NCBI RefSeq assembly: GCF_001192835.1
Contig: NZ_DF968182.1
Coordinates: forward strand, 380,349-444,348
DNA: 64,000 nucleotides
Direction: 5' to 3'
Origin: Lentimicrobium saccharophilum
GTDB taxonomy: Bacteria; Bacteroidota; Bacteroidia; Bacteroidales; Lentimicrobiaceae
Shown: piece by piece, positions 1,878 through 13,981 of the stretch
How the letters are laid out: each line of letters starts with the position of its first letter
How positions within the stretch are numbered: the stretch's first letter is position 1
Position numbers and translations under genes: made by a program
The notes under the pieces: generated by a model
Database searches by the model: none
What the model saw: only the letters and a program-made list of their open reading frames with translations
Told to the model about the DNA's origin: nothing

Positions 1878-2507
1878 TTATTTGATCAGATTATAGCCCT
1901 CTTTTGCTGAGGCATCCCCCGGGCGGTTCATCAATGCCTTTCCGAACAAAACCTTGGCCTCCCTGAGTTTGCCCATCCGGTAATTGGTCCAGCCAAACAT
2001 ATGCAGGGCATCGTAGTCGAAAGGATAAAGATTTGCGATTTTTTCAAAGTATTTGTATGCTGTCTGATACTCCTGACGGCTGTAATATATCATCCCCATC
2101 CGGTAATTTACAGTGTAATGATTGGGATCAATCTTCAACACTTCATTGTAGCGGGTAATTACCTGGTTCCAGTTGCCCAGGGCTGCAGCCGGCAGTACAA
2201 ATCCCAAGCGGGCCTCAACCGACATGGGCATTAGTTGTATGGATTTGTTGTAAAAGGCAATGGATTCGGTAAACCACCCGGCCTGATAGGTAAGCCACCC
2301 CAGCCTGAGGTTGATCTCGTATGAGGATTCATCATAAACTTTTTTCAGTGCTTCTATGGCTTTGCCATATTCCGCATTGTTTTCCAGGGCATAGCTGTTT
2401 TTGAAAACCTCTTCGAACTGAACCTTTTCCTGGGCTGAAACCCTTAAAGTCGCGAAAGCCATCAGCAGCATCAGGCTGATCATTGATTTTTTCAAGGCAG
2501 ATTCCAT
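1878..2507 (-). CDS. Secreted tetratricopeptide-repeat protein
   Basis: A 209-residue protein with a signal peptide (residues 1-25, ending VSAQE) followed by roughly five TPR units. Clear helices include a unit around residues 60-95 (WFTESIAFYNKSIQLMP) and another around 130-165 (YQTAYKYFEKIANLYP). TPRs form a protein-binding superhelix, so the likely role is a periplasmic scaffold or adaptor. No enzymatic motif is visible. Its start overlaps the end of the upstream gene by 16 bp, showing tight translational coupling, and it lies 35 bp before the RND pump. The gene order suggests it works with the TPR/beta-barrel protein encoded just upstream. The exact function is unknown. Confidence 0.8.
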   Translation of the reverse strand: MESALKKSMISLMLLMAFATLRVSAQEKVQFEEVFKNSYALENNAEYGKAIEALKKVYDESSYEINLRLGWLTYQAGWFTESIAFYNKSIQLMPMSVEARLGFVLPAAALGNWNQVITRYNEVLKIDPNHYTVNYRMGMIYYSRQEYQTAYKYFEKIANLYPFDYDALHMFGWTNYRMGKLREAKVLFGKALMNRPGDASAKEGYNLIK

Positions 2508-3817
2508 GTTAATCCTCCTGTTATACTTAATGTTTGGTAATTGTAATAATAAATCTTTCCCGTTGCCGGTTCCGGGAAAAACAGCTCGGTTCCTTCACGG
2601 AGAAAAAGCTGGGCCCTGAGGCTGAATCTGAGATAATCGTTGTGGATATATATCAGCCGGGCAGCGAAGCGGTTTTTTGTCTTATCGAAAGCGTTGTAAA
2701 ATACCTGCAGGTTGTTTTCAGCTGACCCGGTGAGGTTTCCCGCGGTAAATAAAGCTTCACCCCATAGCGCTGGCAGGATTTTTCCTCCCACCATCTGGCT
2801 GAAAATCAGACTTTGGGAATAATCGTTCTGATTCAGGGTAATGGTTGTGCTGCTATACAGGTTCAGGTTTCCGTAAGGTCTTACGATACATCCCAAAGAG
2901 GCCTGAGTAGTCCTCAGCTGATCCGCGTGCAGCGACCATAAACCGGCCGAAGCTTCCCAGACCGGCGAAAGGTAGCTGATCTCTCCCCCGTATGCAATAT
3001 CATCATATTTTGTATTTCGGGGAGGTCCGATCATGCGGGCGACGATGCTGTCGTCACTCCGCAAAGGATTGGAATACCTGACGTCCGATAATCTGAAGGC
3101 GGGACTGATCCTGATTTTGCGTCCGATTATAAACGATGGCGCAAGGTATGCTTCCAGTTGCCGCACGGAGTAGTTCCCGCTCAATGAATCAAACCCCGTA
3201 ATTTCAACTGTTCTTGTTTTATTGAAATTCATTGCTGACACGGCTGCATTGATCATCAGGCTTGAACCGGCCGGGATCAGCGCACCCGCCAGTGAATAGA
3301 AAGCGTTTTTGTTCAGATAGGCTTCAGTATAAAGCCCGTTTCCTTGTTGCCTGTGCTGATCAAACCGGCTGCTGTGGTCAGAAAAAGCCGGTCCTGCCTC
3401 CACATAGATCATTGGATTGAACAGGCGGTTGACTGCCTGGTTTGAATTGCCGGAAGGCAGGCTTTTCTGAAACCTCCTGGCCTTATCGGGCTGTCCGCTG
3501 TAGAGGTATGATTTAATAAGCAGCGAAATGGTAAGTTCATCAAAATTATTGAAATCCCTTGCTTTTTCCAGATGGCGTGCAGCCCGGGCATACCTTTGCA
3601 GTTCAAACGCCGCTATTCCTGTCCTCAGTCGGATGTAGAAGTAATCCCAGCCTTCCCCGATGGCCTGTTCGCCGGTGATAAGAAGACTGTCCCACTTTTG
3701 TTCGGTATATAACCTGTAGGTGAGTGCTTCGTAATCAATGGTAAACGGCTCCCTGGCGGATATTTCTCCGGTAAAAGTAAACAGTAGTAATATGAATGCC
3801 AGGAGTCGCAGGCGCAT
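2492..3817 (-). CDS. TPR domain / outer-membrane beta-barrel protein
   Basis: A 441-residue protein with a signal peptide (about residues 1-21, ending ISARE). Residues 25-125 are helical and TPR-like (for example RYARAARHLEKARDF and QPDKARRFQKSLP). From about residue 130 to the C-terminus the sequence alternates polar and aromatic residues as in outer-membrane beta strands, ending GGLTWNLP. A periplasmic TPR joined to an outer-membrane barrel is the simplest reading. I recognise no named family. It begins 7 bp after the transporter/peptidase fusion gene and overlaps the next TPR gene by 16 bp, so the three are almost certainly one transcript. Together they could link inner membrane, periplasm and outer membrane. 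Confidence 0.72.
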   Translation of the reverse strand: MRLRLLAFILLLFTFTGEISAREPFTIDYEALTYRLYTEQKWDSLLITGEQAIGEGWDYFYIRLRTGIAAFELQRYARAARHLEKARDFNNFDELTISLLIKSYLYSGQPDKARRFQKSLPSGNSNQAVNRLFNPMIYVEAGPAFSDHSSRFDQHRQQGNGLYTEAYLNKNAFYSLAGALIPAGSSLMINAAVSAMNFNKTRTVEITGFDSLSGNYSVRQLEAYLAPSFIIGRKIRISPAFRLSDVRYSNPLRSDDSIVARMIGPPRNTKYDDIAYGGEISYLSPVWEASAGLWSLHADQLRTTQASLGCIVRPYGNLNLYSSTTITLNQNDYSQSLIFSQMVGGKILPALWGEALFTAGNLTGSAENNLQVFYNAFDKTKNRFAARLIYIHNDYLRFSLRAQLFLREGTELFFPEPATGKIYYYNYQTLSITGGLTWNLP

Positions 3818-3824
3818 GGGCGTT

Positions 3825-6017
3825 TCAGTTATTTTTAAAGTGAACGGTTGTGTTTATTTTACCCGATCCGATGCTGACGGATTGCAGGCGGTTTTCTGCG
3901 ATAATCAGGCTGAATCGATAGCCGGCAAGATTTAAACCGGCAACGGACAGTTTACAGGAAGAGCCGAGTTGAAAGCGGTTGCCGGCCAGATCTTCCTGCC
4001 TTTCGGTGATGGCCATTTTATATTCCGGTTTAATGAAAAGATAAAACGGGGCGACAATATCCTGAATTACCCTTGCCCATGAAATCCCGAACGAGGAAGG
4101 CGGGAAGGTATCGCGGGTGACCAGGTCCCTGTGATAAACCATAGGTACCTTGTAAGCCGAGAGATAGAAAAAGTAAAGCAGGCTGTCGCGGCTCCCTTCA
4201 TAATGGGTGAAGAAGAACATAGACCCATCGGTGGTGAAATAAGCTTTCGCACCTGTGGAGGAATCTTCGATAAACTGGTTTTTGTAAAGGTCAGCATTCA
4301 CTTTCCAGGTGCCGTCAGGGAAGGTTCCGTTATCACTGCTATACTCAATGTTCTGACCGGGGATGAAATGAAATGCCTTTACAAGGGCTGGTTCGGGGGC
4401 AAGGTTACTCACCTGCTCATTTTTTAACGGAATTTCATAGAGTTTGAGCTGGACAGGTTCCTGGTAACTGAGGTACTGTGAAACAGGGTAGTTAAGGGTC
4501 GCCGAGCCTATGTGCGGTGTTGACTGAAGTTGAAAATGCAGGTGGGGATAGGGTGATCTGCCGGAATTGCCACAGCTGGCGATCACCTGTCCCTGATGAA
4601 CATAAGATCCCTGTTTTACCTTTATACTGCCTTTCTTCAGGTGACTGAGTTTGGAATAGAGCCGCTCCGAATGTCTGATTATAATGGTATTGCCCCAGTT
4701 GCGGCCAAGGTTGATTTCTCCGGGGGGATTGTCATCAATGCTGTCAACAATTTCTTCAACCCAGCCATTGGCCGGTGCTGTTACAGGTTTATCAAAACAA
4801 TAATAATCGGAAACTTTAGCCCCTTCCCCTGAAAACTCTTTACCGGCTTCATCCGTAATCACAAAATCCCAGGCATGCCGCCACTCCTCCTGATGGGTGA
4901 ATTCTCCGTTGTGGCCCTGGTTTACAGTCCAGACTCCGAAAAAGGGAAGGGAAACGGGCAGGTAGCTTTTGTTACGGAACCTTTCCCCGGAGTTTTGGCC
5001 GATGTATAAATTCAGTTCAGGAGAATAGTGCTGAACGGCAACAGGTTCCGGTTTCATTTGCATCTTTTCCCTGAACTTCATGGCATAGAGGAAAAGCAAT
5101 ACCATCAGGTTAAATGGCAATGAATACACCGGCAGTTGGATTATTCCGAGTAATTCCGCAAATCCTGCGGTAATCATTGAAATAATGGGTGTTACCAGGA
5201 TAACCCACAAAAACGACCAGCCTGATGCGATCATAAAGAAACCGCCGATGGCAATGGCGGTAAGAATATGGTTGAAACCGATGAAACCATAGTTCAATTC
5301 ATTCATGTTTGCCCCTATCAGCAGATAAAAGCCCCAGGCTGAAGCAAACCCGGTTACTGACAGCAGGAAGGCTATCCGGGAGTAAAAAAGCAAGCCTGCA
5401 GCAATCAATAAGCCTGCGAAGAGATGATATTGAAAGAAGATGGCTCCCAGGGATTTAAAGTAAGTTTTAATAAACAGTGGCCAGCTGACATCTCCGAACC
5501 ATTCGTAAATCCTGACAACCAGCGGGCCGCCCCTTTCATAAATGGTGCTCAGGGTATAAATGCCCGATTCCCCGGGGATCATGGTAGAATAATTCCGGGC
5601 GGCAAGTGTCGCTATCCAGATTGCTATAAGGAAGGGGAGTGTAAGGTAGGGCAGTGCATATTTACTTAACAATCCCTCGAAAGCCAGGGTAATAAAGAGG
5701 GTGGCTAGGGCCGTGGCAACCAGCAGCAGGTAAAACTCAGGGCCCGGCTGAAACGAAAGTCCGAGGCCCAGACCAGTAAGCAGGGAATTGAAACCATAGA
5801 AACCCGACAGTATATTCCGCCGGTTCAGGCCAAGTCCCCAGGCCAGGCCATTGGCCGTAAGCAGCGATAGCAACCCGGCAGCACCTGCATACACATCGAA
5901 GAATGAAACCACCATGAGTAAAAGGCCGAACCAGGGATTTTTCGAAAAGAAAACCATGGTGTAGCTGTTCACCGTACTGGTATATACCTTGCTCAGAAGG
6001 CCGGCTGGTTCTGACAT
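3825..6017 (-). CDS. Urea transporter domain fused to an M23 (LytM-like) peptidase domain
   Basis: A 730-residue, two-part protein. Residues 1-315 are a urea-transporter (UT/SLC14) channel with two pseudo-repeats: GFYGFNSLLTGLG at about 72-84 and YGFIGFNHILTAIAIGG at about 243-259, with LPYLTLPF at 122-129 as the UT family LP motif. Residues 350-525 resemble the M23 metallopeptidase fold, with RHAWDF (H381, D384), a middle His near 459, and CGNSGRSPYPHLHFQ carrying the HxH zinc ligands H492/H494. The last 200 residues are beta-rich and unassigned. UT proteins are usually about 300-340 residues, so the fusion more than doubles the length. It follows the ECF sigma gene by 34 bp. The channel could carry urea or another small amide. 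Whether the peptidase faces the periplasm is unclear, because UT C-termini are normally cytoplasmic. Confidence 0.85.
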   Translation of the reverse strand: MSEPAGLLSKVYTSTVNSYTMVFFSKNPWFGLLLMVVSFFDVYAGAAGLLSLLTANGLAWGLGLNRRNILSGFYGFNSLLTGLGLGLSFQPGPEFYLLLVATALATLFITLAFEGLLSKYALPYLTLPFLIAIWIATLAARNYSTMIPGESGIYTLSTIYERGGPLVVRIYEWFGDVSWPLFIKTYFKSLGAIFFQYHLFAGLLIAAGLLFYSRIAFLLSVTGFASAWGFYLLIGANMNELNYGFIGFNHILTAIAIGGFFMIASGWSFLWVILVTPIISMITAGFAELLGIIQLPVYSLPFNLMVLLFLYAMKFREKMQMKPEPVAVQHYSPELNLYIGQNSGERFRNKSYLPVSLPFFGVWTVNQGHNGEFTHQEEWRHAWDFVITDEAGKEFSGEGAKVSDYYCFDKPVTAPANGWVEEIVDSIDDNPPGEINLGRNWGNTIIIRHSERLYSKLSHLKKGSIKVKQGSYVHQGQVIASCGNSGRSPYPHLHFQLQSTPHIGSATLNYPVSQYLSYQEPVQLKLYEIPLKNEQVSNLAPEPALVKAFHFIPGQNIEYSSDNGTFPDGTWKVNADLYKNQFIEDSSTGAKAYFTTDGSMFFFTHYEGSRDSLLYFFYLSAYKVPMVYHRDLVTRDTFPPSSFGISWARVIQDIVAPFYLFIKPEYKMAITERQEDLAGNRFQLGSSCKLSVAGLNLAGYRFSLIIAENRLQSVSIGSGKINTTVHFKNN

Positions 6018-6051
6018 AAAATCAGTCTGAAATTTGGTTAAGCAGTGGGAA

Positions 6052-6627
6052 TCAGTCGATGTAATCTTTCATTCTCGGATCACTCATAATTGCCTTTTTC
6101 AAGCGTTCCTTGCAGTTGTACTTCTTGGTTTTGGCGTAATTCTCCGATCCGTAGCCCATGGTGTCTGCAATGTCCTTTGATGAAAATTTCTGAAGCGAAA
6201 GCAGCAGTATCCGCTGGCAATCCTTTTCCATGGCATTGAAATGCTCCCGGTAGATCCTGTATTTCATCTGTTCGGCTTCAGCAGCCTCCCTGGTGGCTGA
6301 TTCCGGTATGTTAAAGAACTTTTCGATAAGGTCAAAATTGGCGGCTCCCTTACGTTTTGTCTTGAGCTTTTGCATCCATAGATTCCGGCTGATGGAATAA
6401 AGGTAGGTCAGGAAAGAACAGGTAAGGTAGAAGTCATCTTTCTGAACATTTTTGAGCACCACGATCAGGGATTCCTGGAAAATATCTTCGGCATCTTCAT
6501 CATTGCCGGTATTTTTCTTGATCAGGTATCTGATGGTGGGGAAAAACTCCTGGTAAACATGCTTGATGATATAATCGCTGTTGAGCTTAAGCCCCTCCAC
6601 GATCGCCCTGTCGGAAAAATGTATCAT
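6052..6627 (-). CDS. ECF-type RNA polymerase sigma factor
   Basis: A 191-residue sigma-70-family protein. Region 2 spans about residues 20-95: YIIKHVYQEFFPTIRYLI, DAEDIFQESLIVVLKN, then FLTYLYSISRNLWMQKLK, the -10 recognition and core-binding part. Region 4 (about 125-180) has a helix-turn-helix, with CQRILLLSLQKFSSKDIADTMGY followed by CKERLKKAI. No anti-sigma gene is adjacent. It is first in the minus-strand cluster that continues with the UT-M23 fusion and TPR proteins, so it may activate its own operon. A plausible -33/-7 promoter lies at 6741-6770. Known ECF groups often respond to envelope stress, but the signal here cannot be read from sequence. Confidence 0.9.
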   Translation of the reverse strand: MIHFSDRAIVEGLKLNSDYIIKHVYQEFFPTIRYLIKKNTGNDEDAEDIFQESLIVVLKNVQKDDFYLTCSFLTYLYSISRNLWMQKLKTKRKGAANFDLIEKFFNIPESATREAAEAEQMKYRIYREHFNAMEKDCQRILLLSLQKFSSKDIADTMGYGSENYAKTKKYNCKERLKKAIMSDPRMKDYID

Positions 6628-6740
6628 CCAGCCCTTGAATTAATGACTTCTCTTATACTTCACGCAGGGTATAGCCGGAATTGCTCAGGAATAGCCGCTG
6701 TTTAGCCCTGCTGTGGTTAAATATGCCCTGTTTGAGATCA

Positions 6741-6770
6741 TAAAATTATAAAATTATGTTTGTTTGGCAA
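6741..6770 (-). promoter_or_regulatory. Predicted Bacteroidota promoter of the ECF sigma operon
   Basis: On the minus strand TTG (6768-6770) and TAATTTTA (6741-6748) are 19 bp apart, against the phylum consensus TTG-N19-21-TAnnTTTG (last base differs). The sigma start codon is about 110 bp downstream, and the surrounding AT-rich spacer separates it from the decarboxylase gene stop. Confidence 0.4.
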
Positions 6771-6783
6771 ATAATTTTACAAA

Positions 6784-8139
6784 TTATCTGAGTTTAATCA
6801 GGTGTTCCGGTATTTTCTCACTTCCGGTCACCGTTTCCATTGTTTCGTGTTCCCTGATCACGTGGGCTTTTCCGTTTTCGCCGATCAACACCACGTTTGG
6901 CCTGAGGGTAATAAACTGCATCCACTGGGTTACATTATACGCGCCAGTATGATGGATGACAACCTGATCGTTGATGTTCAGCATCGGCAGGTTGACGCTT
7001 TCGCGTACGCAATCGATGTTCATGCACAGGGGACCGTAGAGGGTGGTGTCTTCGCGATGCTGCGAAACGCCCTGAGCGACGGTGACCATGTGCTGGTACC
7101 AGAAGGCGGTGAAAAGAAGATTAACGCCGGCGTCGATGATGGTTGCCCTCCTGCCCGATGAAAGCCGTTTATTGGCGATCACGGATGAGATAATAAAACC
7201 TGCTTCGTCAACCAGGGCGCGGCCTGTTTCAAGAATCAGCAAAGGCAATTCGCCGGGGCTGAAATGACTGTTAATCAGTGCGCTGCTGATGGCTTCTGCA
7301 TATTCGTCAAACGAAGGGTTGGTGTCGCTGCCTGGCAGGTATGACCCCTTGAGCGTATTTTTTGAGGCAAATCCGCCACCGATGTCGATGTATTTCAGCT
7401 GGTGGTTGAATTTCTGCTGCAGCGACCGGGCCAGATCTGCAAGCTTTGTGGCGGCAACGGCATACGCATTTGCTGTCATGATAAAGGTCCCTATGTGGGT
7501 GTGAAGCCCCATCAGCTCAAGCTTGCCTGAGTGCATGATTTTGTTCAGGGCATCCCATGCCTGTCCGTTTTCGTAGTTGAACCCGAAGCGGTCCCACATG
7601 GGGTAAATCCCGGTATCCATATTTACCCGGATGGCTACCCTTGGCTTCTGAGAGGTGGTTTCAGCCACTTCAATCAACAGGTACAACTCGTCCAGGTGAT
7701 CGATGTGTATAAGGCTGCCCTTTTCAGTTGCCATGATCAGTTCTTCCCGGCTTTTACCAGGTCCGTTAAAGATGATTTTTCCCGGATCCACGCCGTTGGC
7801 AATGGCTTTATCGTATTCGTAACCGGATACCACTTCCGCCCAGGCTCCCTCCTGATGAAAAATATTGCATACGGCAGCAAGATAATTAGTTTTATACGAC
7901 CAGGCAAACTGTACTTTAGGGTACCGGGTCGAAAAAGCCCTGAAGGCTTTACGGTAAGTGCTTCTGATCGTATTTTCGGAAAGCACGAACAGGGGGGAGC
8001 CATAATTTGCTACCAGTTCTTTAACAGCCATGCCATCAATATGGGTGGTCGGGGCCTGTTCGGTCCTTATCCCTGATTTTCCGGGCATACCAGCTTCCAG
8101 TTTTGTTATATGCGGACGTTCATAATGTTTCTTTTCCAT
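6784..8139 (-). CDS. DAP/ornithine-decarboxylase-fold (type III PLP) enzyme of a PqqD/ATP-grasp cluster
   Basis: A 451-residue enzyme of the alanine-racemase/DAP-decarboxylase fold, which uses PLP to decarboxylate amino acids. The PLP lysine is K83 in FAWSYKTNYL. GLHTHIG (H213, H215) and GGGFA (254-258) bind the cofactor phosphate region, ETGRALV is at 304-310, and GPLCMNIDCV (C362) corresponds to the active-site Cys segment from the partner subunit. ETGR replaces the EPGR common in LysA, so the substrate may not be meso-DAP. The N-terminus carries an unusual 22-residue tail with YERPHITKLEAG (residues 6-17). It starts 11 bp after the ATP-grasp gene, in the same transcript. In butirosin biosynthesis the related BtrK decarboxylates a glutamyl group held on a carrier protein; a similar carrier-bound substrate is possible here. 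Ordinary lysA is the alternative, less likely given the neighbours. Confidence 0.85.
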   Translation of the reverse strand: MEKKHYERPHITKLEAGMPGKSGIRTEQAPTTHIDGMAVKELVANYGSPLFVLSENTIRSTYRKAFRAFSTRYPKVQFAWSYKTNYLAAVCNIFHQEGAWAEVVSGYEYDKAIANGVDPGKIIFNGPGKSREELIMATEKGSLIHIDHLDELYLLIEVAETTSQKPRVAIRVNMDTGIYPMWDRFGFNYENGQAWDALNKIMHSGKLELMGLHTHIGTFIMTANAYAVAATKLADLARSLQQKFNHQLKYIDIGGGFASKNTLKGSYLPGSDTNPSFDEYAEAISSALINSHFSPGELPLLILETGRALVDEAGFIISSVIANKRLSSGRRATIIDAGVNLLFTAFWYQHMVTVAQGVSQHREDTTLYGPLCMNIDCVRESVNLPMLNINDQVVIHHTGAYNVTQWMQFITLRPNVVLIGENGKAHVIREHETMETVTGSEKIPEHLIKLR

Positions 8140-8150
8140 ATTAATCTTTA

Positions 8151-9206
8151 TTAAAGTTCCCCGTTTACTGAGTAATTTTCAAATTCGCTGCGGTCAACTA
8201 TCATATCCCAGGCGTACCGGATAAAAAGTTTACCCACTTCGTAGCTTGTATATGGCCCGACCTTCTCGCCAAGGGCCAGCCTGGTGAGCGCTTCAGGGAT
8301 ATTCTGGCCAACACCGACCGCCAGGTAAACCCAGGCCGGAATTCTTGGGTTGATTTCCATCAGAAAATACCGCCCGTCGTTTGATTTCATCATTTCCAGC
8401 TCAAATCCCCCTCTCCATCCCGTTGATTCAACAAAACGGCGGGTCAGGCCCAGCAGGTTCTCATCGTCAATACTGATGCCGGCCCAGGCTTTTCCTTTAT
8501 CCGTGATGTATTGCTTACGCATGGGCACTGCAGCGATGGTATTCCCCCTGCCATCGCCAAGTCCGGTTACATTGTATTCGGTTCCGTGCACAAACTTCTG
8601 GAGGATTACCGGATATCCCCATTTCGCAACAATTTTGTTAAAATAGTTGCGGGCCTGTTCCATATTATAGGCAATATAGGCGTCATACCACTTTCCTTTA
8701 ACCATCAGCGGAAAGTCCAGTTCCTTTTCATGCTTGTATATCTCAGCCTGATCAGTGATGGCTATGCCCAGGGGAACATCAATCCCGTATTTTTCCCCGA
8801 ATTTTGAAAGGTTAACCTTATGCCGTTCTTCGAATTGCTCAAATGTGGGCAAAAACATATGGATGCCCATCTGCTTAAGCTTTGGCTCAAGTTTCATAAA
8901 GGAATAAAGCTCAGCGTCGAAGTTTGGAATGATTACATCGATGTTTTCCCGGCTGTGAATATAGGTCAGTCGTTCCATCAGCTCATCCGTTCCGGCGGTG
9001 GGATATGGAATCTGGTAGGTACGGTGGGTGAGGTTGGGCATATAGATGCCTGGCTCCAGCGATTCATATGCGAGTCCGATGATCCGGGCTTCAAAGGATG
9101 CAGCTTCGAGCAGTCCCCTGATCACGGCAACGCCCGGGCCGGGACTGTCGATGGCGTTCAGACCGGTAACTGCAATGGTATAGCAGGGCTTATTCATCCT
9201 TATCAA
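8151..9206 (-). CDS. ATP-grasp carboxylate-amine ligase-like protein
   Basis: A 351-residue protein with the ATP-grasp fold related to carbamoyl-phosphate synthase and amino acid ligases. The N-terminal part (TIAVTGLNAIDSPGPGVAVIRGLLEA) is a Rossmann-like pre-ATP-grasp domain. PLMVKGKWYDAYIAYN and ILQKFVHGTEYNVTGLGD form the ATP-binding lid, and FELEMMKSNDGRYFLMEINPR carries the Mg-binding E..N at the end of the fold. Such enzymes activate a carboxylate as acyl phosphate and join it to an amine or thiol. Its start overlaps the end of the longer reading of the PqqD gene, and it precedes the decarboxylase by 11 bp, so the three act together. BtrJ, the ATP-grasp ligase that charges a carrier in butirosin synthesis, is a useful precedent. 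The substrate is unknown. Confidence 0.85.
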   Translation of the reverse strand: MIRMNKPCYTIAVTGLNAIDSPGPGVAVIRGLLEAASFEARIIGLAYESLEPGIYMPNLTHRTYQIPYPTAGTDELMERLTYIHSRENIDVIIPNFDAELYSFMKLEPKLKQMGIHMFLPTFEQFEERHKVNLSKFGEKYGIDVPLGIAITDQAEIYKHEKELDFPLMVKGKWYDAYIAYNMEQARNYFNKIVAKWGYPVILQKFVHGTEYNVTGLGDGRGNTIAAVPMRKQYITDKGKAWAGISIDDENLLGLTRRFVESTGWRGGFELEMMKSNDGRYFLMEINPRIPAWVYLAVGVGQNIPEALTRLALGEKVGPYTSYEVGKLFIRYAWDMIVDRSEFENYSVNGEL

Positions 9207-9438
9207 GAAGTTGGTACATTTTCATTATTCCGGCGAATTCATGCAGATCTTTCTCAAAACTGTTCCGCTCAACCGCATAGTTTCCGGTAATTTCGTCAAT
9301 AATCTGTTCCCGGGTAAAACCCTGGCGAAGCAGGTTGATGATTTCGGCTCCGACAGGATTCACGGTAAATGATTCCCCTGTGGAAGGGTTGAAAAGAAAC
9401 CCGGTGTCGCTGACGGCAATCTGATGTTTGATTTTCAT
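9190..9438 (-). CDS. PqqD-family peptide-binding (RRE-like) protein
   Basis: A small protein of 82 residues from the ATG at 9438, containing GFLFNPSTGESFTVNPVGAE, then LLRQGFTREQIIDEI and FEKDLHEFAGIM. This is the PqqD winged-helix pattern (also called RRE) that binds leader peptides or partner tails in PQQ, lasso and other peptide pathways. A longer in-frame start at 9489 adds 17 residues with no domain similarity; I prefer 9438 because the domain begins there and an imperfect -7 box (TTACTTTG, 9468-9475 minus) lies between the two starts. It overlaps the ATP-grasp start by 17 bp. No obvious short precursor peptide was seen nearby. Confidence 0.8.
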   Translation of the reverse strand: MKIKHQIAVSDTGFLFNPSTGESFTVNPVGAEIINLLRQGFTREQIIDEITGNYAVERNSFEKDLHEFAGIMKMYQLLDKDE

Positions 9439-9579
9439 AACCTTTTCAATGGTTTTACATTGTATGACAAAGTAACGCAATAACAACATTCTGTGGTTTA
9501 TACAATTCTGCGAAAAGCGTATAAGATTTTATTGCCTTCCGCAAACCGGACCTGTGTGGGGGAGTTGAAGTTTTTATAA

Positions 9580-10188
9580 TTACTCCTTTTTCGGGTGTGC
9601 GGGAACTGACTGAGGTCCGATCAGATCAACCGGTGTCCGGGAATAACCACCTTTTTTATATTCAGTGACCGATATTCCTGTCACCTGCCTGAACTGTGCC
9701 GAAAGGTACTGTACTGAACTGTAGCCAAGCTGAACAGCGATCTCGCTCAGGGTGTATTCGTCGTATTCGATCAGTTCCTTCACTTTTTCGATTTTATGGA
9801 GTATGATGAATTTTTCGAGGGTAATATGCTCATACCTTGAAAAAAGGTTGGTAAGGTAAGCATAGGAAAGCCCCAGCCTTTCTACCAGGTAATCGGAATT
9901 TCTGATCATTGAATTCACATTTCCCGCTTTGTGAACCAGTTCAATTACCGCAAGTTTTATTTTTTCCACAATCTGATGCTCCCGGCTGAAAATGGGCTCA
10001 AATCCATGGGCTGCAAGTAGTTCTGAATAAAACTCCTTATTGTGCAGCAGCGGATCATACATGATTTCCACTTCTCCGGGTTTGATATTAAGAATTGTGG
10101 CCCCCTCCTTTTCAAGAAGTTGCCTGATCACCACAAAACAGCAACTGCAAATCATGTTTCGCGGGTAAAGGACAGTTGTTTTCTGCAT
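9580..10188 (-). CDS. AraC-family transcription regulator with HMA-like N-terminus
   Basis: A 202-residue regulator. Residues 1-70 resemble a heavy-metal-associated/ferredoxin-like fold with a cysteine-rich motif (ICSCCFVVI, residues 13-21) followed by GEVEIMYDP. Residues 105-185 hold the two helix-turn-helix motifs of AraC: LGLSYAYLTNLFSRYEHITLEKFI and YTLSEIAVQLGYSSVQYLSAQFRQVTGIS. This domain pairing is known in Bacteroidota, where the N-terminus is thought to sense metals or thiol chemistry. It lies 141 bp upstream of pqqD on the same strand, so it may control that cluster; the CzcA pump is 8 kb away in another transcript. Which genes it regulates is inferred from position only. Confidence 0.85.
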   Translation of the reverse strand: MQKTTVLYPRNMICSCCFVVIRQLLEKEGATILNIKPGEVEIMYDPLLHNKEFYSELLAAHGFEPIFSREHQIVEKIKLAVIELVHKAGNVNSMIRNSDYLVERLGLSYAYLTNLFSRYEHITLEKFIILHKIEKVKELIEYDEYTLSEIAVQLGYSSVQYLSAQFRQVTGISVTEYKKGGYSRTPVDLIGPQSVPAHPKKE

Positions 10189-10833
10189 CTTGTGAAACTC
10201 AGGATTTATCTGGCCAATTAAATCGTTCTCAAAATCTGACGCGTTTTTCAGTTAGTTATCCGGTTGGTTCTGCGCGTACCCCGAAGTTGTAACCTGTTGC
10301 CTCATTCTTTTTTTGCCGGCATCCACAATGCATTATATGAGGTCATTCGAAATGCTTATAGTAACAGATGATGATCAGATAATTGAATGTGCATGTTTGC
10401 ATATTTGTTTGACACGAAACTTTTCAATTTCCTGCGATCAGTGTAATAAACTGAACTTAATGTGATCGCAGATAAAGAGCGCTCTGTTAACCTGTTTGTA
10501 TTCAACATTCAAGACCCCGGTAATCAATTCTTCCGGTCTTTGCCTGCGACGGATAACCGGCATGAAGTATTCATTGATCCGCACAATTATCTGAATTTGG
10601 TCAAAGCGGTTGTAATCAACAATAAATTGGTAAAATTGCAGTTTAATAGTTCAGGTTTTATTACTGACTTCCAAAACGGGGAAGTGTTAAACCGAACTGA
10701 TTGATTTGTATTGTGAAATTAATGAAAGTACGGGGTTTGTGAAACAAAGTTCTGTCTTTTTTCTTTAATAAAAGGTTTAATGTAATTAGCAGGCCGGTGT
10801 TTCAGCAGGTCAAAAAAATTAAATTATCAACGA
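10189..10833. other. Intergenic region between AraC regulator and porZ
   Basis: 645 bp between divergent genes. A short open frame at 10462-10704 (80 codons) has no recognisable domain, no clear promoter and reads like non-coding sequence, so it is not called. The region must hold the promoters of both flanking genes, but I could not find a clear TTG-N19-21-TAnnTTTG pair. No tRNA, repeat or strong hairpin was seen. Confidence 0.5.
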
Positions 10834-13167
10834 ATGAGAAAGTCTGTATTCTTTTTATTTTTTGTTTTTCAGGCATTGGTTTTTCTCCCGTTCTCCGGAT
10901 GGTCTCAGGAAATCGGCATCGGACAATGGCGTGACCACCTGCCATATCGCAAGGTAATAGCAGTAGCCGAAGGCGATGGCAGGATTTATGCGGCCACCCC
11001 TTACAGCCTTTTTTATTACGATATCAATGACAACAGCCTTAACCGTCTGAGCAAGAATAACGGCCTGAGCGATGTCGGAATCAGCAGCATTAAATACAAT
11101 GATGATTTAAAGGCACTGGTCATCGCCTATACCAATGCAAACATTGACCTGCTGAAAGACGGAAATATCATCAATTTGTCGGATATCAAGCGTAAGCCCA
11201 TTCTGGGAAATAAAACCATCAACCGCATTGTTTTCATTGGCAAGCGGGCTTATCTGGCCTGCGGGTTCGGGATTGTGGTACTCGATATTGAAAAGGAGGA
11301 ATTTCCGGAGCCCATCTATTATATCGGAAGTCAGGGCAGGGCCATCAATATCAACGACATTACCTATAATCCGGTGGATTCGCTGATTTATGCAGCGACC
11401 GATGAAGGAATCTTCCGGGCCTCGTTTTATGGCTCAAACCTGGCAAATTTTGCGGAATGGACGCGCGAGAGTTCATTTGTTCTCCCCTCGGCTCCTTACA
11501 ATCATATTGCAGCTTTTAACAACAGGATTTATACGAACAAGAAGGGACCTGCTTATTCAACCGATGCCATGTTTGTAAAGATCGACGGTACCTGGGAGCC
11601 CTTCCAGGCAAATAACACATCCAACCGGTCCAGCCTGGAGGTCCATTATAATCGTCTTTTGGTGTGTAACAACCTTGCGGTTGAAATTTTCATGCCCGAC
11701 GGTTCGCTGGAACACAAACTCTATACCTATAACCCGGGCAACATTTTCCCAAAAGATGCAATTCTTGATAAAAATAATAACGTGTGGATAGGTGATGAAT
11801 TTGAGGGTTTGGTGAAAATTTCAGATTTTAATTCAGCTGAACGCTTTCTTCCCGATGGCCCTGATTTTCCTGATGTTTATTCAATGGCCGCCGGGAAGAG
11901 TGATGTGTGGATTGTTCCGGGAGGTCGAAATTCTGCCTTCGCGGCGATATACCGTCAGGCCCGGTTTGCCGGTTTTGTCGACGGGAAATGGAAAACCACA
12001 GATCAGAAAACGGATGCTTTCCTGAGTGATATGCGCGATGTTTTATCGGTTGCCGTTGATCCGTCAAACAACAAAAGGGTCTATTTCGGCACCTGGGGCT
12101 ACGGGCTGATGGAGTATGTGAACGAAGAGTTTTCGCAGCTCTATACCAGTGAGAACAGCAGTCTTGAAGGTACTGCCTATGAAAGTACATGGTATGGCAT
12201 TGGCGGGCTGGCTTTCGATGATCAGAATAACCTGTGGGTTACCAATTCAAGCGCCTCTTCTGTCTTATCTGTCAGGAAGAACAGCGGAGACTGGAAATCA
12301 TTTAACCTTGGCTCTGTGGCAACCGGGGTGGATATAGGGAAGGTTATGGTGGACAAATCAGGTCAGAAATGGCTGATGCCGCGCGATCATGCACTGATCG
12401 TTTTTAATGATAACAACACCCTGGATGACCCCACGGATGACAAGGCAAAGAGACTTACTTCCGTCGCCGGCAATGGAAGTCTGCCCGGCTCGTTTATACT
12501 GAGTATGGCAGTCGACCGCGAAGGTCTCGTGTGGGTCGGTTCCAATGAAGGCGTGGCGGTATTCTATTCACCGGCCAACATTTTCAGCGGCCAGAATTTT
12601 GATGCGCAGCGCATCCTGATAGAACAGGACGGATACGGTCAGTATCTGCTTGAAGCCGAAGCGGTGACCGCCATCGCCGTTGACGGTTCAAACCGGAAGT
12701 GGTTCGGTACCGACCGGGCGGGCGTTTTCCTGATGTCGGCCGACGGCACCAAGGAAATCCTGCACTTCACTGAAGAAAACAGCCCTTTGCTCAGCAATTC
12801 CATTACCGATATCACCATCAACGAGTCTGGAGAGGTCTTTATCGGCACGTCGCAGGGCGTAATCTCCTACAGAAGTGAATCCGTAACGCCCACACAGGAC
12901 CTGAAAGAGGTGGTGGTATTTCCGAATCCGGTGCGCGAAAGCTACGAGGGGGCCATTGCCATCCGTGGCCTTGTTGAGAACTCCAGCGTGAAGATTACCG
13001 ATATCAGCGGGAATCTGGTATATACAACGTTGAGTGAAGGCGGACAGGCGCTCTGGAACGGACGCAATTTTAACGGCGACCGGGTTCAGACGGGGGTTTA
13101 TCTGGTTTATGTCACCAACAGTGATGGATCCAAAACCACGGTGACCAAAATCATGTTTGTTAACTGA
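10834..13167 (+). CDS. porZ: T9SS component PorZ (two-component-propeller repeats, type A sorting domain)
   Basis: A 777-residue secreted surface protein. PorZ is part of the T9SS attachment complex, where in Porphyromonas gingivalis it delivers anionic LPS so that cargo can be anchored. After a signal peptide (residues 1-25, ending GWSQE) come many propeller blades with repeats such as RIYAATPYSLFYYDINDN, NNVWIGDEFEGLVKIS, LVWVGSNEGVAVF and RKWFGTDRAGVFLM, giving two beta-propellers. The C-terminal 80 residues (VVVFPNPVRESYEGA to VTKIMFVN) are a T9SS type A sorting domain. Length (783 residues in P. gingivalis) and the recO gene immediately downstream match porZ in other Bacteroidota. The ATG at 10834 begins directly with the signal peptide. 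A weak GC hairpin with a short T-run follows at about 13207-13228. Confidence 0.9.
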   Translation: MRKSVFFLFFVFQALVFLPFSGWSQEIGIGQWRDHLPYRKVIAVAEGDGRIYAATPYSLFYYDINDNSLNRLSKNNGLSDVGISSIKYNDDLKALVIAYTNANIDLLKDGNIINLSDIKRKPILGNKTINRIVFIGKRAYLACGFGIVVLDIEKEEFPEPIYYIGSQGRAININDITYNPVDSLIYAATDEGIFRASFYGSNLANFAEWTRESSFVLPSAPYNHIAAFNNRIYTNKKGPAYSTDAMFVKIDGTWEPFQANNTSNRSSLEVHYNRLLVCNNLAVEIFMPDGSLEHKLYTYNPGNIFPKDAILDKNNNVWIGDEFEGLVKISDFNSAERFLPDGPDFPDVYSMAAGKSDVWIVPGGRNSAFAAIYRQARFAGFVDGKWKTTDQKTDAFLSDMRDVLSVAVDPSNNKRVYFGTWGYGLMEYVNEEFSQLYTSENSSLEGTAYESTWYGIGGLAFDDQNNLWVTNSSASSVLSVRKNSGDWKSFNLGSVATGVDIGKVMVDKSGQKWLMPRDHALIVFNDNNTLDDPTDDKAKRLTSVAGNGSLPGSFILSMAVDREGLVWVGSNEGVAVFYSPANIFSGQNFDAQRILIEQDGYGQYLLEAEAVTAIAVDGSNRKWFGTDRAGVFLMSADGTKEILHFTEENSPLLSNSITDITINESGEVFIGTSQGVISYRSESVTPTQDLKEVVVFPNPVRESYEGAIAIRGLVENSSVKITDISGNLVYTTLSEGGQALWNGRNFNGDRVQTGVYLVYVTNSDGSKTTVTKIMFVN

Positions 13168-13243
13168 AGCGTCGCGTTTTTAATTTTCATTGATACGGGT
13201 GTTTCAGGCCGGTCCTGAGCCGGTTTTCAGTCATTATAATCCG

Positions 13244-13251
13244 TATTTTTG
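13244..13251 (+). promoter_or_regulatory. Predicted -7 box of recO (near-leaderless)
   Basis: TATTTTTG matches TAnnTTTG exactly and ends 4 bp before the recO ATG at 13256. Transcription would start at or just after the start codon, giving a leaderless or nearly leaderless mRNA. Confidence 0.4.
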
Positions 13252-13255
13252 ACCC

Positions 13256-13981
13256 ATGCTGATTTCAACGCATGGCATTGTATTTCACACCACCCGGTAT
13301 GCCGATTCAGGGGCTGTAGTGAAAATTTATACCGAAAAATTCGGGTTGCAGTCATTTTTGGTAAAAGGCCTTTTCAGTCGCAATTCAAAGCTGAAAGCCG
13401 CTCTTTTCGGTCACCTCAGCATATTGGATCTGGTGATTGACCGCCACGAGCACAGAAACCTGCATTATATCCGCGAAGCCGGCATTTATATCCCGCTTCA
13501 GCGGTTGCAGGATGATATGTCGCGAAGTTCCCTGGTGCTGTTTATCAATGAACTGCTCTACAAATGCATCAGGGAAGAGGAGCCCAATCCCGCCTTGTTC
13601 AGTTATCTGGTGACCGTGCTGCAACTGCTCAACGAACCGGGAATTTCCCTGCATTCATTCCATTTGCTGTTTATGCTGCGGCTTACCCGTTTTCTGGGGT
13701 TCAGCCCCAGATTTGCCAAAGCAGGTTCAGGTGAATTTTTCGATATGGAAGAAGGGCTGTTTCTGGATTCGGAACCCATGCACCGGTACTTTATTTCCGG
13801 GCCACCGGCCGAAGCCCTCGAACGGCTTCAATTGATGGAATTTCATGACCTGCATGACTTTGAAATTTCCAGGTCAGTGCGCGATACCCTGCTCGACCGG
13901 CTGATAGATTATTACCGTCTGCATATTCCCGATCTGGGTGAAATGAAATCGGTAAAGGTGTTGCAGGAAATTCTCGGATAG
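13256..13981 (+). CDS. recO: DNA repair protein RecO
   Basis: A 241-residue RecO, the recombination mediator that helps RecR load RecA on SSB-coated single-stranded DNA. The N-terminal OB fold begins MLISTHGIVFHTTRYADSGA, the usual RecO opening (THGIVL..KY.E). Helical RecO C-terminal segments follow (LFSYLVTVLQLLNEPG, FHLLFMLRLTRFLGFSP). The four zinc cysteines of some RecO proteins are absent, as in many Bacteroidota. It lies 88 bp after porZ with its own predicted -7 box, so it can be made independently of porZ. Confidence 0.93.
   Translation: MLISTHGIVFHTTRYADSGAVVKIYTEKFGLQSFLVKGLFSRNSKLKAALFGHLSILDLVIDRHEHRNLHYIREAGIYIPLQRLQDDMSRSSLVLFINELLYKCIREEEPNPALFSYLVTVLQLLNEPGISLHSFHLLFMLRLTRFLGFSPRFAKAGSGEFFDMEEGLFLDSEPMHRYFISGPPAEALERLQLMEFHDLHDFEISRSVRDTLLDRLIDYYRLHIPDLGEMKSVKVLQEILG

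Follow-up and report, generated by a model that had tools for sequence, protein, structure and literature searches.

In a 64,000-nucleotide stretch of the Lentimicrobium saccharophilum genome (contig NZ_DF968182.1, positions 380,349 to 444,348; hereafter the window, whose own numbering is used below), three tightly packed genes encode a PqqD-family protein, an ATP-grasp ligase and a pyridoxal phosphate (PLP)-dependent decarboxylase of the alanine-racemase fold. We find that this trio makes up the first three genes of a larger module of six, conserved well outside L. saccharophilum, and that the PqqD protein very probably docks onto the N-terminal tail of the decarboxylase itself. The module runs in the order PqqD, ATP-grasp, decarboxylase, urea-transporter/M23-peptidase fusion, a tetratricopeptide-repeat (TPR) protein with a predicted barrel (TPR-barrel) and a further TPR protein. 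On balance, the best overall explanation is that the six genes make a small amide-type product and probably export it. An earlier note on this DNA had described the trio with its upstream AraC regulator; the downstream continuation of the operon and the leader-like tail of the decarboxylase go beyond it.

The tail precedes the fold of the decarboxylase. Residues 7–26 have predicted local distance difference test (pLDDT) values under 50 in the AlphaFold2 model, and despite this modelled disorder the tail is among the best-conserved parts of the protein. It follows the register [Y/F]xxPx[ILV]...KxG, in which motif positions 1, 4, 6, 16 and 18 correspond to positions −17, −14, −12, −2 and +1 of lasso-peptide leaders. 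Y6, P9, K21 and G23 are invariant in a 50-row alignment of the tail; in a 50-row alignment of the whole protein, which takes in more divergent members, P9 and K21 stay invariant and Y6 and G23 are kept in at least 90% of rows. Among 96 decarboxylases (L047 and L060 were left out of the count, though the motif is visible in both), position −17 is Y (91) or F (5), P(−14), I/L/V at −12 and K(−2) occur in 96/96 and G(+1) in 95/96; the register was chosen here by a best-score script, which favours the motif, so that the alignment columns are the less biased measure. In lasso leaders, YxxPxL occupies −17 to −12, position −2 is usually Thr and +1 is Gly (PMC10368454). The spacing in the tail equals that of the lasso leaders, with Lys instead of Thr at −2.

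The best solved relatives of the PqqD profile are the lasso recognition elements TbiB1 and TfuB1, members of the RREs (RiPP recognition elements; RiPP, ribosomally synthesized and post-translationally modified peptide). In the crystal structure of LppB with its leader, D70 forms a hydrogen bond to the leader Tyr and N33 fixes a kink at the Pro; D70A lowers complex formation, N33A nearly abolishes binding, and PbaB1 G42N/Q79D takes up a Tyr leader (PMC13381572). We mapped LppB D70 and N33 by hand to PqqD positions 64 and 27 on a gapless alignment to 9x90; the numbering there differs by 18, a shift with which five more residues named in that paper (I44, L65, D68, E70 and F83) agree as well.

These positions were compared with the tails in 114 tailed loci, a sample deliberately enriched in Phe tails. 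A PqqD gene lies upstream on the same strand in 111 of them, the three exclusions being L051 and L065, which lie at contig starts, and L156. All 111 PqqD proteins have N27. All 97 Tyr tails pair with Asp (95) or Asn (2) at PqqD position 64, and all 14 Phe tails with Tyr (12), His (1) or Phe (1), so that the match between tail residue and position 64 has zero exceptions in 111 loci. Over all loci, none of 80 scorable PqqD columns besides 64, nor any of 739 columns from the ligase and the decarboxylase body, separates the two groups. Docking is thus well supported by the tail register, the homology to lasso RREs and the covariation, which together uphold the role as docking protein that the earlier note had assigned to PqqD. 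The evidence that PqqD holds the tail in the way lasso RREs hold their leaders appears strong but not conclusive.

Several points weigh against this interpretation. All Phe tails fall within a single clade, whose 17 tips comprise these 14 and three Tyr tails; parsimony gives two changes per side, and the covariation therefore amounts to about two coordinated changes in this one clade. The node behind the second event has a support of 0.053, so that a single event followed by a reversal is possible. Inside the clade, three other PqqD columns and 27 control columns also separate the groups. Furthermore, contact between PqqD and the ATP-grasp protein was not indicated by any test made.

To define the module we used two sets of relatives. 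The first comprises 65 loci found in Bacteroidota metagenome assemblies with the ATP-grasp protein as query (53–98% identity), whose neighbourhoods were compared by clustering the predicted genes; contig ends cut many of these loci. The decarboxylase cluster is present in 64 of the 65 (the truncated L060 copy falls outside it, and a further member is the other decarboxylase of the L. saccharophilum genome), ATP-grasp likewise in 64 (in L047 a masked stretch fuses the ATP-grasp and decarboxylase frames), PqqD in 63 and the urea-transporter/M23 fusion in 52, with a fragment group of five loci in addition. Corresponding counts are 50 for TPR-barrel, 40 for the TPR protein, 34 for AraC and 10 for a sigma factor of the extracytoplasmic function (ECF) type. 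In the tightest loci, such as L030, the six genes overlap or almost touch.

For the second set, a profile of the decarboxylase tail was run against 395 Bacteroidota genomes sampled across the phylum. Hits below 1e-5 occur in 34 of them, L. saccharophilum included, and stretches were taken from the other 33 and from one weak-hit genome. PqqD, ATP-grasp, decarboxylase and fusion gene are all present in 33/33 strong-hit stretches, with additional frames between PqqD and ATP-grasp (one, in L156) or between decarboxylase and fusion gene (L160), and with the fusion gene broken into two frames in L141; the TPR protein is recognised in 30 and TPR-barrel in 11. Matches to the fusion profile that span both domains occur in exactly the 34 genomes with a tailed decarboxylase (as two frames in G005, and extending to profile position 543 of 732 in G255), and those listed for 60 other genomes cover a single domain at 9e-49 or weaker. 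At E ≤ 0.1 the tail profile reaches 43 genomes, nine of them with values no better than 0.004; no module gene was recognised in L166, the one weak-hit stretch fetched. The same gene order in many other genomes places the trio beyond chance and confirms that, as the earlier note had asked, the genes keep together and in order outside this strain. By strong tail hits the module occurs in 27 of 171 genera of the sample. Its distribution within groups is patchy (4/92, 16/148 and 1/98 genomes), which suggests that it spread horizontally or was often lost.

Other genes accompany the module in some lineages. The operon is interrupted between decarboxylase and fusion gene in L046, L048, L052, L057 and L068, where the insert consists of a class I/II aminotransferase gene (PF00155) and a gene that looks histidine-kinase-like by eye. 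In other lineages the gene directly upstream of PqqD often codes for a protein whose C-terminal domain is of the type IX secretion sorting kind (L142:4839-5687, L152:4917-5762, L162:11470-12309, L023:35-826). The upstream sorted proteins, the aminotransferase, a GNAT protein and the histidine-kinase-like protein are not universal, and we excluded them from the core. L040 has a second PqqD gene (842-1090), from which the ATP-grasp gene lies about 5.5 kb downstream.

The earlier note had proposed that PqqD docks a separate peptide or protein carrier and had suggested a search for a short conserved open reading frame nearby. When the 65 first-set loci were scanned for the motif in all six frames, seven matches fell outside the decarboxylases, none of them a convincing precursor: one is the truncated L060 decarboxylase and six appear chance-like by eye. 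Apart from the decarboxylase, the tail profile matches the genome of L. saccharophilum once, at E 9.86, and the strong tail hits in the 34 genomes all lie within frames of decarboxylase size (449–496 aa). Small frames from the 98 fetched loci in which a decarboxylase was recognised number 4140; their 14 largest groups are gene pieces or antisense shadows by eye, and none is carrier-like. The ten window proteins scanned (1878 to 13981) include no acyl-carrier protein, lasso cyclase, B2 peptidase or radical SAM maturase. No precursor-like frame was found in the loci examined by motif scan and by the 14 largest small-frame groups, nor a separate carrier; the sole PqqD ligand found is the N-terminal tail of the decarboxylase. 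These results bear directly on a classical RiPP pathway, in which a precursor peptide encoded elsewhere would be the true substrate and the decarboxylase tail a secondary docking site or a relic. The lasso-type RRE and the complete leader register in the tail fit such a pathway, and a precursor with an unrelated leader may have escaped these searches, but the restriction of tail hits to decarboxylase-size frames, the lack of a precursor-like frame near the examined loci and the strict conservation of the tail alongside PqqD, which argues against a relic, make it improbable.

The decarboxylase is almost certainly not a diaminopimelate (DAP) decarboxylase. Its score with the LysA model TIGR01048 (231.9 bits) is below the curated cut-off of 297.9, and in a midpoint-rooted tree of 58 sequences (24 module decarboxylases, 29 LysA, 5 others) module enzymes and LysA form two separate groups with supports of 0.66 and 0.985. 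The PLP lysine K83, R307 of the ExGR motif, the catalytic C372 and Y401 are kept in all 24 module decarboxylases, whereas the distal-site Arg and Glu found in 29/29 LysA are replaced by Thr (23) or Ser (1) and by Met (24), respectively. A separate lysA match at E < 1e-100 exists in 29 of the 34 module genomes; the other five, that of L. saccharophilum included, have none stronger than about 1e-69. The earlier note had named grouping with LysA in a genome with no other lysA as the outcome that would undo its proposal: the enzyme stands apart from LysA, but the second half does apply, since no protein of this genome exceeds the LysA cut-off. That last fact and the common fold are what speaks for a housekeeping LysA in an unusual operon, and we rejected this identity as scarcely credible in view of the sub-cut-off score, the pocket replacements in 24/24 and the separate strong lysA of most module genomes. 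The sole other LysA-family match in the L. saccharophilum genome (G000:C1:617922-619103, L004) scores 73 bits and adjoins a gene whose product resembles an agmatinase by eye.

The closest solved relative, by sequence and by predicted structure, is N-citrylornithine decarboxylase (7kh2), which ranks first in Foldseek with the AlphaFold2 model (mean pLDDT 89.7). Thr and Met at the two distal positions also mark FigC/FslC, the N-citrylornithine decarboxylase of rhizoferrin synthesis, and FigC His357 is the proposed contact to the citryl group (PMC7857480). In the module enzymes the His357 position is Ile (24/24), and citrate is therefore probably not part of the substrate; the position of FigC Thr330 is Trp. 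Judged by its residues, the pocket would suit an amino acid with its distal end already joined to an uncharged moiety.

The FigC-like Thr and Met also speak for a metallophore-type pathway, in which the ATP-grasp enzyme would replace a siderophore synthetase of the NIS (nonribosomal peptide synthetase-independent siderophore) type. The decarboxylase would take a free acyl-amino acid as substrate, as FigC or SbnH do, and the PqqD–tail pair would be a simple scaffold, with no role for the tail lysine. Relatives of the same fold work in citrate siderophore pathways (PMC7857480), and the upstream AraC gene present in 34/65 loci has clustered cysteines by eye. We nevertheless consider this pathway unlikely: the citryl-contact His is replaced, the ten window proteins scanned contain no recognisable siderophore synthetase or receptor, and plain scaffolding leaves the conservation of K(−2) in 96/96 unexplained.

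In 46 ATP-grasp sequences K166, E206, E267, E280 and N282 are invariant; we take these to be the nucleotide and magnesium residues of the fold. A distant relative on a Streptomyces zaomyceticus plasmid is a single 758-aa chain of ATP-grasp and decarboxylase (WP_327166871.1; L167:7992-10268, NZ_CP108525.1). Its ATP-grasp part is 27.9% identical over 86% of the query (profile E 1e-40), its decarboxylase part has Cys-Met in the specificity loop, and neither PqqD nor a leader tail was detected in the 17-kb locus. Ligase and decarboxylase are thus fused where RRE and tail are absent, as a docking role predicts, in a single distant case. The gene directly after the fusion (L167:10265-10852) encodes a 195-aa protein with a Cys/His/Asp pattern that looks transglutaminase-like by eye. 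Elsewhere, Antarctobacter heliothermus plasmid pSMS3-3 has two adjoining genes for decarboxylases of the alanine-racemase fold (L170:5019-8056) and, behind them, a gene for a 76-aa protein that matches no Pfam family, and Nitratidesulfovibrio vulgaris plasmid pDEVAL01 has an ATP-grasp gene directly beside a decarboxylase gene (L172:2676-5584), in the vicinity of an annotated XrtA/PEP-CTERM histidine kinase gene.

In the mechanism we propose, the ATP-grasp enzyme would join an amino acid to a partner and the decarboxylase, with its FigC-like pocket, would then strip the alpha-carboxylate from the joined amino acid; we lean slightly towards ligation before decarboxylation. PqqD would clamp the lasso-leader-like tail and so bring the decarboxylase against the ligase, and it may offer the invariant K(−2)-x-G(+1) end to the ligase, since in lasso systems the partner enzymes act at that end of the leader. 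The product would be carried over the inner membrane, peptidoglycan and outer membrane by the urea-transporter/M23 fusion, the TPR protein and TPR-barrel. If any carrier exists, its best candidate is the tail lysine of the decarboxylase, and the docked carrier of the earlier note would thus live on in a changed form. A further step, which we regard as unlikely, would be that PqqD shows K21 to the ATP-grasp enzyme, an amino acid with a side-chain carboxylate is bonded to the K21 amine and is then alpha-decarboxylated; leader, carrier and enzyme would be one protein. Since the K-x-G end sits at the lasso leader cleavage position, the tail could also be read as a maturation signal that is cut before G23, with PqqD guiding the processing of the decarboxylase. 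This is less probable still: no leader-peptidase gene was found among the ten window proteins scanned, and the M23 peptidase, behind a membrane transporter domain, would be expected outside the cytoplasm.

Further points weigh against the overall explanation. No PDB match was obtained with the single ATP-grasp sequence at E 0.01, and its profile reaches distant relatives only, from which substrates cannot be read. L021 has full flanks on both sides and carries the trio with no urea-transporter/M23 gene nearby, so that the link between trio and fusion gene is not absolute. Finally, the transporter, peptidase and barrel could serve import or wall remodelling instead.

As to the envelope genes themselves, the first half of the fusion matches solved urea transporters, and domain homology suggests a urea channel; the second half is an M23 peptidase, in which H375, D384, H459, H492 and H494 are invariant in 42 sequences and presumably represent the zinc ligands and catalytic His. 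In the model of the 441-aa protein, TPR helices lead into a barrel with about 14 strands, and Foldseek places FadL first and the TPR-barrel exporters BcsC and PelB lower in the list. A same-strand frame of 230–330 aa follows the TPR gene in 14/33 second-set loci. A hidden Markov model of these 14 proteins did not find the TPR-barrel sequences in a plain profile search, but gave a probability of 95.8 against the TPR-barrel family in a profile–profile comparison; homology of the two is likely but not settled. Taken together, these genes may form an export line, an assignment we make tentatively. A role in anti-phage defence was considered and rejected, six proteins giving no PADLOC hit at E 0.001.

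Several known systems resemble parts of the module. Like the RRE–leader pairs of lasso and pyrroloquinoline quinone (PQQ) pathways, it has a discrete RRE of the PqqD fold and a leader motif in equal register, with the Asn (111/111) and, where the tail has Tyr, the Asp/Asn that correspond to the LppB residues holding Pro and Tyr in place. Unlike them, it carries the leader at the start of a catalytic enzyme and not of a precursor peptide, has Lys for Thr at −2, and lacks the maturation enzymes searched for among the ten window proteins. With FigC/FslC and their relative SbnH the decarboxylase shares the fold and the Thr/Met pair where DAP decarboxylase has Arg and an acidic residue, but it is partnered by an ATP-grasp enzyme instead of a NIS synthetase and has the extra tail and RRE. 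The Streptomyces fusion protein has a related ATP-grasp part and the Cys-Met loop in one chain, with PqqD and tail undetected at that locus.

BtrJ is the ATP-grasp enzyme of butirosin synthesis, to which the earlier note had compared the trio. The pairing of an ATP-grasp enzyme with a decarboxylase of the alanine-racemase fold is common to both (for BtrK and BtrI, PMC7857480), and joint action of ligase and decarboxylase is supported. The analogy as such is looser than suggested, because the pocket resembles FigC/FslC and not BtrK: alignment of the specificity loop (Cys-Met-Asn-Ile-Asp versus Cys-Thr-Pro in BtrK) ruled out a BtrK-type pocket, and no acyl-carrier protein was recognised among the ten window proteins.

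The module as a whole belongs to none of the known systems considered, and every part comes from a known family. The earlier note knew of no named pathway with this set, and a full-text literature search, covering few subscription journals, likewise returned no description of the gene set or of an RRE that binds the tail of an enzyme. With heavier weight on the RRE–leader principle the module could count as a form of that principle; what looks new is that the leader sits on an enzyme and not on a precursor peptide. The known task of RREs is to recruit precursor peptides. In this module an RRE apparently recruits an enzyme by means of its leader-like tail; leader recognition would then serve as an assembly tag apart from RiPP synthesis. 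RRE-based genome mining could then uncover non-RiPP pathways, and a hunt for the precursor beside an orphan RRE can fail where the ligand is the N-terminus of an enzyme. Recurrence in 27 of 171 genera, together with the envelope apparatus around the urea-channel/peptidase fusion, indicates that the product is probably useful in nature.

Table 1. Genes of the module and associated features in the window
Feature	Position	Strand	Evidence
PqqD-family protein (RRE), 82 aa	9190..9438	-	PF05402 6.2e-11 (on longer frame); N27, D64 present
ATP-grasp ligase, 347 aa from ATG 9194	8151..9194	-	PF15632, PRK12767-type models
PLP decarboxylase of the alanine-racemase fold, FigC-like pocket, 451 aa	6784..8139	-	PF02784 + PF00278; best PDB match 7kh2
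Leader-like motif on decarboxylase tail, Y6 to G23 (YERPHI...K21-S-G23)	8071..8124	-	Conservation, register, modelled disorder, covariation with PqqD position 64
ECF-type sigma factor	6052..6627	-	TIGR02937; inside operon in close relatives (10 loci)
Urea-transporter/M23-peptidase fusion, 730 aa	3825..6017	-	PF03253 3e-59, PF01551 6.2e-16
TPR domain + predicted outer-membrane barrel, 441 aa	2492..3817	-	AlphaFold2 mean pLDDT 90.6; Foldseek best FadL
TPR protein, 209 aa	1878..2507	-	TPR families
AraC-type regulator upstream of module, frequent but not universal	9580..10188	-	PF12833 helix-turn-helix 2.8e-15

The four reading frames named in the earlier note (decarboxylase, ATP-grasp, PqqD and AraC) were confirmed on the minus strand by their coordinates and by family scans, as was their tight packing, with a 5-base overlap between PqqD and ATP-grasp and an 11-base gap between ATP-grasp and decarboxylase (Table 1). 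PqqD most likely starts at ATG 9438, the alternative being a longer frame from 9489, and with the former start the spacing to the AraC gene is 141 bases. The genome that contains the window measures 4.5 Mb, and its nearest named relatives are Bacteroidales. The module is adjoined by the genes for PorZ of the type IX secretion system (10834-13167, plus strand; NF052228, 655 bits) and RecO (13256-13981, plus strand), relatives of which occur in only 8 and 7 of the 65 first-set loci, respectively.

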